From Kiritimatiellia bacterium (GTDB lineage Bacteria; Verrucomicrobiota; Kiritimatiellia; RFP12; UBA1067), in NCBI GenBank assembly GCA_017563185.1, contig JAFXIL010000196.1, positions 1 through 39,404 on the forward strand: 39,404 nt of DNA, given 5' to 3'. The notes beneath the pieces were generated by a model. The model worked only from the letters and a program-made list of their open reading frames with translations, made no database searches and was not told the origin of the DNA. Made by a program: the position numbers and the translations under genes. This document shows positions 18,167 to 21,940 of this stretch, piece after piece (positions within the stretch are counted from its first letter, which is position 1; every line of letters begins with the position of its first letter).

Positions 18167-19246
18167 TCAGCGCTGCGAGCTTGCAAGGTCCGAACGCGGC
18201 ACCACGACGAAGTTTATCGTCTTGTATCCCGCCCCTTCATAGATTATGCCAATGTCGCCGTTCGGGAGCAGCGTCATGTCGGAGTACGCGGCGCCTTCGG
18301 GCTGGACGCATATGCCCTCGTTCCAAGTGCGGCCGTCGTCGAACGACTCCCTGAGGAAGAGGCGCGCGCGGCGCTTGGGGCTGTTGCAGTTCGTGAAGAG
18401 AAGGGACTTGCCGAGGCGCATGATCTGAGCGTTGCACTGGGGGTCGGCGAGATTCCGGTCGTACCACGACTGCCATGTGGCGCCGCGGTCGCGCGAGACG
18501 TGTATCTGCCGCCCGCCGCCGCGCCAGCGCGAGTTGACCATCCACGCCCCGTCCGAAAGCTCCACCACCTTGCATTCGTCGCCGTTCGCCACCGGCTTGC
18601 CGACCGCGCGCCACGTCCTGCCGTGGTCTGTGGAGCCGAACAGGGCGTTCCCGTGGCCAACGCGCACGAGGGTGTGGAGAAGCGTGCCGTCCGACGCCGC
18701 GATGCCGGATCCGGACGAAATGAATATGTACGCGCCCTTCTTCTCGGCGCAGTTCTCGCCGAACGGCCACTCCGGGAACGCCACTTCCTTCGATATGTCG
18801 CGCGGCTTCGACCAGGTGCCGCCGTTGTCGGAGGACTCCTGCACGAAGAACTGGAACACGCCCTTCCGATTTCTGCACTCCCACACGTTGTAGAAGAGGA
18901 ATATCTTCTTCGCCGCGGGATCGACTATCAGCGAAGGGTCGGAGGCGGCCCACTGCTCGTCGTCGTTCCACTTCCACGTCCAGGTGTCAACGGGCCTCGT
19001 CCAGGTCTTACCGCCGTCTGCGGACCTCCTTGCGGAGATGTTTATCGGCTGGCACGAGTTGAGGTCGCCTGCGTGCCTCTTCCTCGCGTCGCACACCGCC
19101 ACCAGGTCTCCGTTCGGCGCCGTGCACAGCGCCGGGATGCGGTACACGGCCACTCCCCCGTCGCCCGCCTTCCACAGGCACGTCGTTCCCGCCGCCGCGG
19201 CAGACAGCTGAAACGCCGCCGCCGCAAATGCCATGATCTCTCTCAT
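18167..19246 (-). CDS. Secreted exo-sialidase (GH33, BNR-repeat)
   Basis: 359 residues. It should remove terminal sialic acids from glycoconjugates. The start ATG 19246 overlaps the stop of the solute-binding protein gene in an ATGA. A short hydrophobic start (MAFAAAAFQLSAAAAG) acts as a likely signal peptide. The RIP motif is YRIPAL (R36-I37-P38), whose arginine belongs to the catalytic triad. At least five Asp boxes follow: SADGGKTW, SSDNGGTW, STDHGRTW, SRDRGATW and SFDDGRTW, as in six-bladed sialidase propellers. No sialic-acid lyase, kinase or epimerase genes are in the window, so how released sialic acid is used cannot be seen here. Confidence 0.9.
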   Translation of the reverse strand: MREIMAFAAAAFQLSAAAAGTTCLWKAGDGGVAVYRIPALCTAPNGDLVAVCDARKRHAGDLNSCQPINISARRSADGGKTWTRPVDTWTWKWNDDEQWAASDPSLIVDPAAKKIFLFYNVWECRNRKGVFQFFVQESSDNGGTWSKPRDISKEVAFPEWPFGENCAEKKGAYIFISSGSGIAASDGTLLHTLVRVGHGNALFGSTDHGRTWRAVGKPVANGDECKVVELSDGAWMVNSRWRGGGRQIHVSRDRGATWQSWYDRNLADPQCNAQIMRLGKSLLFTNCNSPKRRARLFLRESFDDGRTWNEGICVQPEGAAYSDMTLLPNGDIGIIYEGAGYKTINFVVVPRSDLASSQR

Positions 19247-20775
19247 TTCGTTTCGTCCTTTATCCTGAAGTACTTCACCGTTCCGTGGTTGAAGTCGGTT
19301 GAGATGTAGTTCTCCAGCCTGTTCCAGCGAAGCGAATATATGCGCGGCGTGTGGAGGAATATCCACGGGCAGTCCTCGCGCACTATCTCCTGCGCCTTCC
19401 GCCAGTCCTGCGCGTCGAACGCGCGGTCGAACTCCGGGCTGGAGTAGCATCCGTGGTTGACGCCCGGCGCCGCGTTCTTGGTGTGGAGCAGCATGAGGAA
19501 GTTCTCGGGGTCCGGATAGTCGCCCACCCAGCCCGTGTTGAACAGCTGCACGCGCCCTTCGTTCATCGCCGAGAGGAACGCCTCCCACGTCATGTACTTC
19601 GCCGTGAGCTCCACGCCCACGCGGTCGTAGAACGCGGCCAGAAGCTCGGCCATCTCACGCATGTCCTGCGTGGCCCTGCCTATCGCGAGCTCGAGGCTGA
19701 GGCGTCTGCCGGTCTTCGGGTCCACGCCGCCTGGATAGCCCGCCTCGGCAAGAAGCCTCTTCGCCTTCTCCTCGTCGTACGAATACGCGAACGGCGTCTC
19801 GAGGCGGCCTGCCATTCCGATCGGAAGCGGTCCGTCGCACGGCAGCACGCGGTTGTTCATGAACTTCTTCCACGCGGGGAAGTTGAACGCGCAGTTGAGC
19901 GCCTGTCGCAGCTTGCGGTTAGGACCCACAACAGGGTCTTTCATGTTGAAGCCGATGAAGTAGATGGTCAGCGACGGCGACGAATTGAGCGTCATGCCCT
20001 TGGCGGCCAGTTCGGGGAGGAGAGTGCCGTCTGGGGCTATCACGGCGTCCCAGTTGTCGCGCGATATGCTGCTGAGGAAGTCGATCTCTCCCGAAAGGAA
20101 CATCAGCCACTGCGTGGAGAGGTCGTCCACGACCATGAACCTGACTTCGTCGATGTCCACCTTCTCGCGGTAGATTGGATTGCGCTCGAACACCATCTCG
20201 TGGCTCTTGCGCCACTCCCTGAGATAGTATGCGCCGGTGCCCGTGCCGTCCTCCGCCATCACGCCGGTGTAGGGCATGGCCATGAGCCACTTGAAGACGT
20301 GCTGCGGCTCCTTGAGCGTGACGGTGAAGGTGAGCTCGCCGGTCACGTCCACGCTCTTCACGTTGTGCATCAGCCACATGCCCGAGCTTGCGTTGCGCCT
20401 GTCGGCCAGCCTGTCGAGGCAGCGCTTGACGTCGGCCGCCTTCACCTGGGATCCGTTGCGGAACTTCACGCCGTCGATCACGCGGAAGGCGTACACGAGG
20501 CCGTCCGCGCTCACCTCGGGCATCTCGCACACGCACGGCCTGAGCTTGTATGGACGCGCGTAGTAGTCGATGTCCAGTATCGGCTCGTACTCCTGCGTGA
20601 TCACCTGCGAGGCGGCAGTGTCGCCCGCCTTGATGGGATCCATGCTGGCGACCATCGGCAGCGCCCTTCTGAACACCTTGCGCCCGGCCGCCAGCCCGCA
20701 TGCCGGCAGCGCGGCGACAACCGCGAGCGCGGCCATCGTCAGCGCCCCGCGTATGCTATGTACGTTTCTTCTCAT
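19243..20775 (-). CDS. Family 5 extracellular solute-binding protein (ABC transporter)
   Basis: 510 residues, SBP_bac_5 type, the periplasmic receptor of peptide or other ABC importers. A signal peptide ends in LPACGLAAG; the Cys could be lipidated, although Pro at -2 is not ideal for a lipobox. VSADGLVYAFRVIDGVKFRNG (shortened core: VIDGVKFRNG) near 115 and NRKLRQALNCAFN near 305 are the typical motifs of the family. No permease or ATPase gene is adjacent, so it is an orphan receptor in this window. Its partner, the next gene, is a sialidase coupled by ATGA. In Haemophilus ducreyi a family-5 protein (SatA) binds sialic acid, so the ligand may be sialic acid or a glycopeptide; this is inference. 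The ATG at 20775 has no Shine-Dalgarno. Confidence 0.85.
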   Translation of the reverse strand: MRRNVHSIRGALTMAALAVVAALPACGLAAGRKVFRRALPMVASMDPIKAGDTAASQVITQEYEPILDIDYYARPYKLRPCVCEMPEVSADGLVYAFRVIDGVKFRNGSQVKAADVKRCLDRLADRRNASSGMWLMHNVKSVDVTGELTFTVTLKEPQHVFKWLMAMPYTGVMAEDGTGTGAYYLREWRKSHEMVFERNPIYREKVDIDEVRFMVVDDLSTQWLMFLSGEIDFLSSISRDNWDAVIAPDGTLLPELAAKGMTLNSSPSLTIYFIGFNMKDPVVGPNRKLRQALNCAFNFPAWKKFMNNRVLPCDGPLPIGMAGRLETPFAYSYDEEKAKRLLAEAGYPGGVDPKTGRRLSLELAIGRATQDMREMAELLAAFYDRVGVELTAKYMTWEAFLSAMNEGRVQLFNTGWVGDYPDPENFLMLLHTKNAAPGVNHGCYSSPEFDRAFDAQDWRKAQEIVREDCPWIFLHTPRIYSLRWNRLENYISTDFNHGTVKYFRIKDETK

Positions 20776-20786
20776 TGCCGGGAGTT

Positions 20787-20816
20787 ATTTTACCATTTGC
20801 GACGGCAGAAGCGCAA
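20787..20816 (-). promoter_or_regulatory. Possible proximal promoter of the solute-binding protein gene
   Basis: TTGCGC (20811-20816) and TAAAAT (20787-20792), 18 bases apart on the minus strand. TAAAAT ends only 11 bases before the ATG, so the leader would be about five bases and lack a ribosome site. A second, stronger promoter lies upstream at 21052-21080. Confidence 0.4.
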
Positions 20817-20854
20817 CCGCATTTTTCTTATGGTCGACCGCCTTTTAGTCGCCG

Positions 20855-20863
20855 CCCCCCCCC
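20855..20863. repeat. Homopolymer of nine C (G on the minus strand)
   Basis: Nine consecutive C residues followed by five T. The tract lies in the leader of the solute-binding protein operon, between the distal promoter and the proximal promoter. Such tracts slip easily in replication and also in sequencing. Confidence 0.7.
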
Positions 20864-20902
20864 TTTTTATTGTTGAGGCAATTTCAAAGCCTCTGCGATT
20901 CT

Positions 20903-20922
20903 GGCCGGGACAGAGCCCGGCC
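20903..20922. repeat. Palindromic hairpin GGCCGGG/CCCGGCC
   Basis: Seven-bp perfect stem with loop ACAGAG on the plus strand. It may be part of the structured leader RNA, or one copy of a dispersed intergenic palindrome (REP-like). Only one copy occurs in this window. Confidence 0.55.
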
Positions 20923-20943
20923 CTCCCTTGGCTTCGGGCCTGT

Positions 20944-21045
20944 GGCGGGTACTATGTGCCGCCCTTCCACGCGCAGTCGCGTCGCGAAGAGCCGTACCCG
21001 CCGATGTCAAAGATCAGCTACGTTCTCGTCTTTGCTGAGCAGAAC
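20944..21045 (-). ncRNA. Candidate structured RNA or long structured 5' leader
   Basis: The 382-base gap 20776-21157 holds no gene. A strong promoter (21052-21080) would start an RNA near 21045. At 20944-21002 the RNA can fold into a long rod: GGCGGGTAC pairs with GTACCCGCC (9 bp), GCTCTTC with GAAGGGC (7 bp with one G-U), and ACGCG with CGCGT (5 bp) around a four-base ACTG loop, with small internal loops between. A second hairpin lies at 20903-20922, and a GAGGC/GCCTC pair near 20875-20896. No known RNA (SRP, RNase P, tmRNA, 6S) is recognised. It could be a separate small RNA or the leader of the solute-binding protein/sialidase operon; the 3' end is unknown. Confidence 0.45.
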
Positions 21046-21051
21046 GCGCAA

Positions 21052-21080
21052 AGTATATCGCATTTTCAATTCAGTTTCAA
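21052..21080 (-). promoter_or_regulatory. Strong promoter (TTGAAA-17-TATACT) facing the structured leader
   Basis: TTGAAA (21075-21080) and TATACT (21052-21057), spacing 17 on the minus strand. It lies directly after the terminator-like hairpin of the MBL gene and about 270 bases before the solute-binding protein ATG. Confidence 0.65.
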
Positions 21081-21104
21081 GCGACAGTTTTGAAAATTGG
21101 AAAT

Positions 21105-21144
21105 TTGGCCAGAATTGCACATCTTCAGCCCTGAATTCTGCCAA
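21105..21144 (-). terminator. Terminator-like hairpin after the MBL hydrolase gene
   Basis: On the minus strand TTGGCAGAATT pairs with AATTCTGGCCAA (11 bp, one bulged base) around a 17-base loop, starting 13 bases after the MBL stop. The sequence after it is moderately U-rich (ATTTCCAATTTTC). Confidence 0.5.
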
Positions 21145-21157
21145 GCACCGGAATGAT

Positions 21158-21787
21158 CTACTCCTGCATGAACGGATTGGACTCGACTTCGCGCGCGATC
21201 GTGGTGGCGGCGCCATGGCCCGGCACGACTTCGGTGGAAGGCAGAAGCGTAGCGAGGCGCTTCAGCGAGGCGCCCATATCCTTCATGCTGCCGCCGGGGA
21301 AGTCCGTTCGCCCGCACGATCCCGCAAAGAGCGTGTCGCCGGTGAGAATCAACTCCTCCCGCTCGAAGTGCAGGCACACGCTCCCCGGCGTGTGGCCGGG
21401 CGTGGAAAGCACCTTGGCGGAAAGCCCGCCGCATTCAAGCACGGCCCCTTCCACAAGGTCGGCGACGAGCGTCGCCGGGCGCGGCGTTGCGGAATAGTGC
21501 GGCGGCCACGCGTTGAGCGGCGAGAACGCGATCTTCTCGTCGGCAGGCGCAAGGTGCACCGCAAGGCCGGGCCACTTCGCCACGAGGCCCGGCACCGCGC
21601 CGATGTGGTCGAAGTGGCCGTGCGTGAGAGCCACAAGCCCCGGAACGAGCCCGCGCCTTTCGCAGAACCCGGCGATCGCCTCGGCGTCCGCGCCGGGATC
21701 GACGATCCACGCCTTCGCAGGATCGCTCCAGAGGATTATGCAGTTGGCCTCGATCGGTCCAAGCGGCAGCACTTCCTTTTCCATCAT
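21158..21787 (-). CDS. MBL-fold metallo-hydrolase (glyoxalase II-like)
   Basis: 209 residues, cytoplasmic. The zinc motif THGHFDH is at residues 55-61. Later ligands are in STPGHTPGS (about 128-136) and GDTLFAGSCGRTD (about 147-159), followed by VPGHG near 190. This pattern matches the short hydroxyacylglutathione-hydrolase-like group common in anaerobes, which often lacks the C-terminal domain of true glyoxalase II; the actual substrate (a thioester or lactone) is unknown. The ATG at 21787 is chosen because GGTAAGG lies just upstream; the frame to 21826 runs into the inverted repeat. It is probably monocistronic. Confidence 0.85.
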   Translation of the reverse strand: MMEKEVLPLGPIEANCIILWSDPAKAWIVDPGADAEAIAGFCERRGLVPGLVALTHGHFDHIGAVPGLVAKWPGLAVHLAPADEKIAFSPLNAWPPHYSATPRPATLVADLVEGAVLECGGLSAKVLSTPGHTPGSVCLHFEREELILTGDTLFAGSCGRTDFPGGSMKDMGASLKRLATLLPSTEVVPGHGAATTIAREVESNPFMQE

Positions 21788-21809
21788 TCGCACCTTACCT
21801 ATAAGTTCT

Positions 21810-21940
21810 GGAAACAACAAAAACAACGTGTAAAAACAACTTCCTCTTTCTCGCCGCGAAACTTCGCGGCGTTCCTGAATCGGCGGGCATGTTGCACGCC
21901 GTAAAAGAAGTTGTTTTTATCATTTGTCAATGTTGTTTCC
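21810..21940. repeat. 131-bp element with 34-bp imperfect terminal inverted repeats
   Basis: The left arm 21810-21843 and the reverse complement of the right arm 21907-21940 agree at about 27 of 34 positions. Both start GGAAACAACA and end AAAAACAACTTC, differing only in the middle. The 63-base interior contains a 9-bp hairpin CGCCGCGAA/TTCGCGGCG (21852-21871). No clear target-site duplication is seen. It fills almost the entire gap between the MBL gene start and the end of the glycosidase gene. It may be a miniature inverted-repeat element, a terminator array, or a regulatory site for the MBL gene. Confidence 0.6.

Follow-up and report, generated by a model that had tools for sequence, protein, structure and literature searches.

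The minus-strand segment 20903-21080 of the window (the whole 39,404-nucleotide stretch of DNA that was analysed) is probably the complete, undecayed promoter and first domain (R1) of a two-domain leader RNA of the Kiritimatiellae, split from its second domain (R2) and likely providing steady transcription of a transporter/sialidase operon. This reading draws on directly observed homology, a promoter, conserved and covarying stems, and the absence of R2. The leader and its promoter sit between a hydrolase gene and an SBP_bac_5 gene, all on the minus strand (Table 1). The first-pass annotation had described the segment as free of genes, and no conserved gene overlaps the leader; a plus-strand open reading frame across the region is a frame artefact. 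Within the operon, the true start of the BNR-repeat frame is probably nearer 19243 than the listed one, because the listed start overlaps the preceding SBP_bac_5 gene.

Table 1. Features of the leader and its neighbouring genes in the window
Feature	Positions	Strand	Remark
Metallo-beta-lactamase superfamily hydrolase gene	21158-21826	-	Upstream neighbour of the leader
Sigma-70-type promoter, TTGAAA-17-TATACT	21052-21080	-	CGCTTGAAA context common to other copies
5' hairpin, GCGTTCT/AGAACGT	21020-21047	-	Missed by the first-pass annotation
Conserved linker, GATCTTTGACATCGG	21001-21015	-	Hardly varies across the 18 aligned copies
Rod, outer stem GGCGGGTAC/GTACCCGCC plus inner stems	20944-21002	-	
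Conserved 3' part, ACAGGCCCGAAGCCAAGGGAG	20923-20943	-	From the 18-copy alignment
GC-rich hairpin, GGCCGGG-CTCTGT-CCCGGCC	20903-20922	-	
Dispersed repeat, GC hairpin plus GAGGC/GCCTC hairpin (20875-20893)	20874-20927	-	
Leader tail	20776-20873	-	Not common to other copies; without the R2 attenuator domain
SBP_bac_5 (family 5 extracellular solute-binding protein) gene	19243-20775	-	
BNR-repeat (sialidase-like) open reading frame	18167-19588	-	Behind the SBP_bac_5 gene

Most of the anatomy proposed from the sequence held up. The promoter is the sole sigma-70-like site between 20200 and 21600 (10/12 matching, 0.1 expected), and its spacing and its distance to the domain (33-37 nt before GATCTTTGA) are the same in most copies of the genus. 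Transcription would start near 21045. The 59-nt rod lies exactly where it had been drawn and folds at -34 kcal/mol (z = -3.95), with 1 of 200 shuffles as good. The fold of the whole leader of ~270 nt is ordinary against shuffles (z = -0.8), so it is the rod, together with the comparison to relatives, that carries the case. The claimed 7-bp hairpin and the GAGGC/GCCTC hairpin are also present. A "terminator-like hairpin" reported behind the upstream gene (21104-21144) proved to be a weak 11-bp stem with no T run that is not scored as a terminator, and a scan of the region found no terminator-like site in the leader itself. The leader tail also carries a run of nine Gs (20855-20863, minus strand), a possible slippage tract.

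R1 is a conserved RNA domain. A covariance model built from 18 copies, the window sequence among them, places the window copy at 20923-21015 on the minus strand with 112.9 bits, against 118.8 bits for the best known copy, and matches the window's own genome exactly once, at this copy. When the own genome and 59 relatives were searched at the DNA level, many of the genomes proved to carry copies of the region. R1 is present in 27 of the 97 genomes of the family (Kiritimatiellae), with up to 10 copies per genome, and was seen only there in a search that covered the family and its near relatives; the genomes compared are drafts and partly incomplete. The copies have in common a sigma-70-type promoter, a 5' hairpin, GATCTTTGAYATCGG, the rod, and ACCGGCCCGAARCCA, and the window has the promoter, the 5' hairpin, and the R1 domain with its stem between GATCTTTGAYATCGG and ACCGGCCCGAARCCA. 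In distant copies the rod is reduced to its outer stem.

Homologues thus retain the promoter, hairpin, and rod with compensatory changes, which was the outcome sought when a covariance check on relatives was suggested. The stem sequence of the 5' hairpin differs in nearly every copy yet remains paired: across 41 copies, pairing in cis scores 15.0 versus 11.8 +/- 0.5, and none of 3000 arm re-pairings was as good. Covariation in the rod and the other R1 stems is modest (three pairs with double changes) because these stems are GC-rich and well conserved. Both the R1 and R2 models were made from copies found by similarity, so E-values for the model copies are circular.

The earlier annotation had also held that palindromes scattered at unrelated loci would point to a dispersed repeat, and this applies to one part of the region only. 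The segment 20874-20927, with the GC-rich and GAGGC/GCCTC hairpins, has a 96% identical copy at G000:C121 and occurs without R1 in G013 and G008. Many host copies with no fixed gene orientation, the pattern of REP/MITE elements, characterise this segment and not R1. The conserved promoter-bearing element spans 20923-21080 and is distinct from the repeat. A selfish or REP/MITE-like DNA repeat with no function as RNA is thus quite unlikely as an account of the whole. R1 is multi-copy in relatives with differing neighbours, and the palindromes occur without it, but its orientation is fixed, running from promoter to gene, promoter position is conserved, its changes are paired, and the own genome holds a single copy. 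The GC-rich and GAGGC/GCCTC hairpins resemble REP/BIME-type palindromes in being scattered; R1 differs from these in being oriented, promoter-bearing, and linked to R2. In other R1 copies the GC hairpin is swapped for different perfect GC hairpins. Relatives have a series of these 3' of R1 with varying stems (GGTCGCG../CGCGACC, GGTCACGCG../CGCGTGACC, GGCCCGCTCGCCGAGCGGGCC), each preceded by GGTAGGG or GGGAGGG.

In most R1 copies the conserved sequence runs on into R2 and then to a start codon. R2 lies 100-300 nt downstream of R1 in about 33 testable copies, a tally that leaves out L010, L030, and L035, which reach contig ends. Its core consists of hairpins H2 and H7, and three helices link their loops: H3, KL (a kissing-loop helix), and H5. 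In 27 copies, a hand-written pseudoknotted structure has 96.4% of its cells paired, versus 87.3% when shuffled and 33-50% when slid, and 131 double-change cells against 40 in the shuffles. For H3 and H5, none of 2000 permutations paired as well as the arms do in cis, in three independent sets (family copies, IMG/VR contigs, and distant Verrucomicrobiota). KL is compensated between groups, with CGCCAA/TTGGCG, CGACCAA/TTGGTCG, ATCACCAA/TTGGTGAT, and ACCGCGAA/TTCGCGGT.

H3 and H5 also vary in an unusual manner. Among copies that are 94-96% identical elsewhere, they are only 50-65% identical, whereas the other helices reach 98%; in R2 alignment A4 (for example L008, L024, L028, and L057) the values are ~58% for H3 and ~65% for H5 where the remainder is ~94% identical. 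They are nonetheless complementary in cis in 28 of 29 copies, giving each copy a private code. One R2 copy in G023 (L062:1445-1606) is chimeric, with H3 and H5 both broken and a 3' half whose arms are those of L043, also in G023; R2 copies therefore recombine. Loop 2 of R2 is the reverse complement of loop 1, and for this reason R2 scores on the opposite strand too (20-44 bits). The loops change in a coupled manner, which templated correction of one by the other could account for.

R2 is arranged like a transcription attenuator. In all 65 copies examined the second hairpin is closed by H7, a T-rich tract follows it directly in 59, and in 58 one strand of H7 can instead pair in H6, a stem lying upstream. 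By this layout, complete copies would act as transcription attenuators. RNA polymerase would start at the R1 promoter and transcribe R1 and then R2, which would fold either the antiterminator stem H6 or the closing stem H7 that forms an intrinsic terminator with the T-rich tract. The choice would be coupled to the three-helix loop-loop complex of H3, KL, and H5, and its outcome would be read-through, or not, into the unrelated gene behind.

The start codon typically falls 25-75 nt behind R2 (median 63 nt, 69 of 70 copies with an open reading frame); it was chosen automatically and the distances are approximate. In rumen bacteria related to this one, the complete RNA precedes many different genes, and the genes behind R1/R2 copies belong to no common pathway. 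They are unrelated and accessory, and they include BspA-type leucine-rich repeat (LRR), FGE-sulfatase-like, protein kinase, FRG, DUF2971, HSDR_N, Sel1, response regulator, and HTH genes, as well as many without a family. In L220, L221, and L222, two weak tandem R2 matches ~240 nt apart precede one gene, as in tandem riboswitches. At G016:C115:6000-14000 (L223), an R1-only copy comes first and then a complete R1+R2 copy that precedes a DUF2971 gene; the locus adjoins a VapBC-like pair (PIN/Vap names assigned by eye).

R2 has no match in the window, at E-values up to 10, or in the whole own genome. Clear R1 copies without R2 are also found at G016:C115:7991, where the copy precedes a VapC/PIN-like gene, and at L029, L034, and L140. 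Such solo copies before different genes, and the compactness of R1 as a unit with its own promoter, are what a free small RNA would predict, with the transcript ending behind the GC hairpin and acting in trans and the gene behind it incidental. We regard this as unlikely, since R1 has no intrinsic terminator behind it in the window and most R1 copies continue into R2 and a start codon at short distance.

The transporter gene behind this leader is an additional copy specific to the lineage, with a widespread paralog elsewhere (C65 in the own genome), and its 90% ortholog in G013 (L154, L001) has no R1 upstream. In most relatives other genes, often biotin-ligase-like by translation, follow the hydrolase gene, and neither R1 nor the transporter gene ever does; the block therefore either came in or was rearranged within this lineage. 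This and the ortholog without R1 mean that the promoter-R1 module joined the operon in this lineage.

The first-pass annotation had suggested a leader that senses a sugar or peptide for the operon. Its structured leader RNA with its own promoter stands, borne out by the homologues; the operon-specific sensing is not supported. A structured leader with a promoter before a transporter gene does fit a riboswitch for the transporter/sialidase operon, but this reading is highly improbable: other copies precede unrelated genes rather than one pathway, the 90% ortholog lacks the leader, and the window has no expression platform, neither a terminator nor the R2 attenuator domain. Because it lacks R2, the most likely contribution of the window copy is a constitutive promoter with a stable, folded 5' end, and not a sensor. 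R1 is undecayed and no terminator remains, so the simplest reading is that its promoter is transcribed steadily. The promoter and R1 alone before the SBP_bac_5 gene would give steady transcription of the transporter and sialidase genes with a folded, stable 5' end. This role for R1 is deduced from sequence, and R1 could also carry regulation that is not visible there.

R2 occurs in 54 of 388 Verrucomicrobiota genomes, which span orders and classes, as well as on several dozen IMG/VR contigs, many of them redundant (L066, L068, L069, L072, L074, L075, L078-L080, L082-L084, L087, and L189-L218). On these contigs it precedes secreted, HTH, HSDR_N, and unknown genes, and the leaders bear TAnnTTTG promoter motifs. 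Such motifs are typical of Bacteroidota, and this promoter type points to Bacteroidota hosts for the contigs. Other matches were discarded as chance or coding: L091 and L092, two viral contigs that matched the 5'-domain pattern, and the 17-mer matches L067/L073/L077, L070, L071, L076, and L081.

Covariance models of Rfam 15 gave no credible match for the window, the complete copies, or the viral copies; the matches at gathering and relaxed thresholds were implausible eukaryotic ones only. Complete and viral copies gave no BLAST matches in phage or plasmid collections, and no description of the R1/R2 element was found in the open-access articles searched. R1/R2 looks like a widespread regulatory RNA that has yet to be catalogued.

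Complete R1+R2 copies resemble known attenuating leaders and riboswitches in having a promoter, a conserved fold, two competing stems, a T-tract terminator, and a start codon close behind. They differ in the lack of a common pathway and in three loop-loop helices with copy-private sequences, and the window copy differs further in having no terminator altogether. In the HMP-PP (thiS) riboswitch the aptamer sits inside the terminator (PMC6478431). R2 is similar in that the conserved kissing loop b, H3b, and H5b lie within the terminator loop, and different in that it serves other genes and matches no Rfam riboswitch. R1/R2 also recalls integron attC sites as a structured element before unrelated accessory genes. 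Arrays of attC sites were rejected on anatomy: no RYYYAAC/GTTRRRY pair was seen by eye, and R1/R2 has its own promoter, a pseudoknotted core, and a terminator.

Tentatively, the complete element may be a new attenuator class that crosses phyla, occurring in Verrucomicrobiota and, judging by promoter type, in mobile elements of Bacteroidota. Termination would be controlled through the three-helix loop-loop complex, with a copy-private code orthogonal to that of paralogues, and R1 would be a portable unit of promoter and leader, able to join genes with or without the switch. The architecture of R2 is unusual: three covarying loop-loop helices lock its two hairpins together, and one of these hairpins would double as a terminator. 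In these Kiritimatiellae, the genes that such leaders precede are interchangeable accessory genes. The private code of H3 and H5 raises the question of whether paralogous leaders have been selected against cross-talk, and which signal they would be reading.
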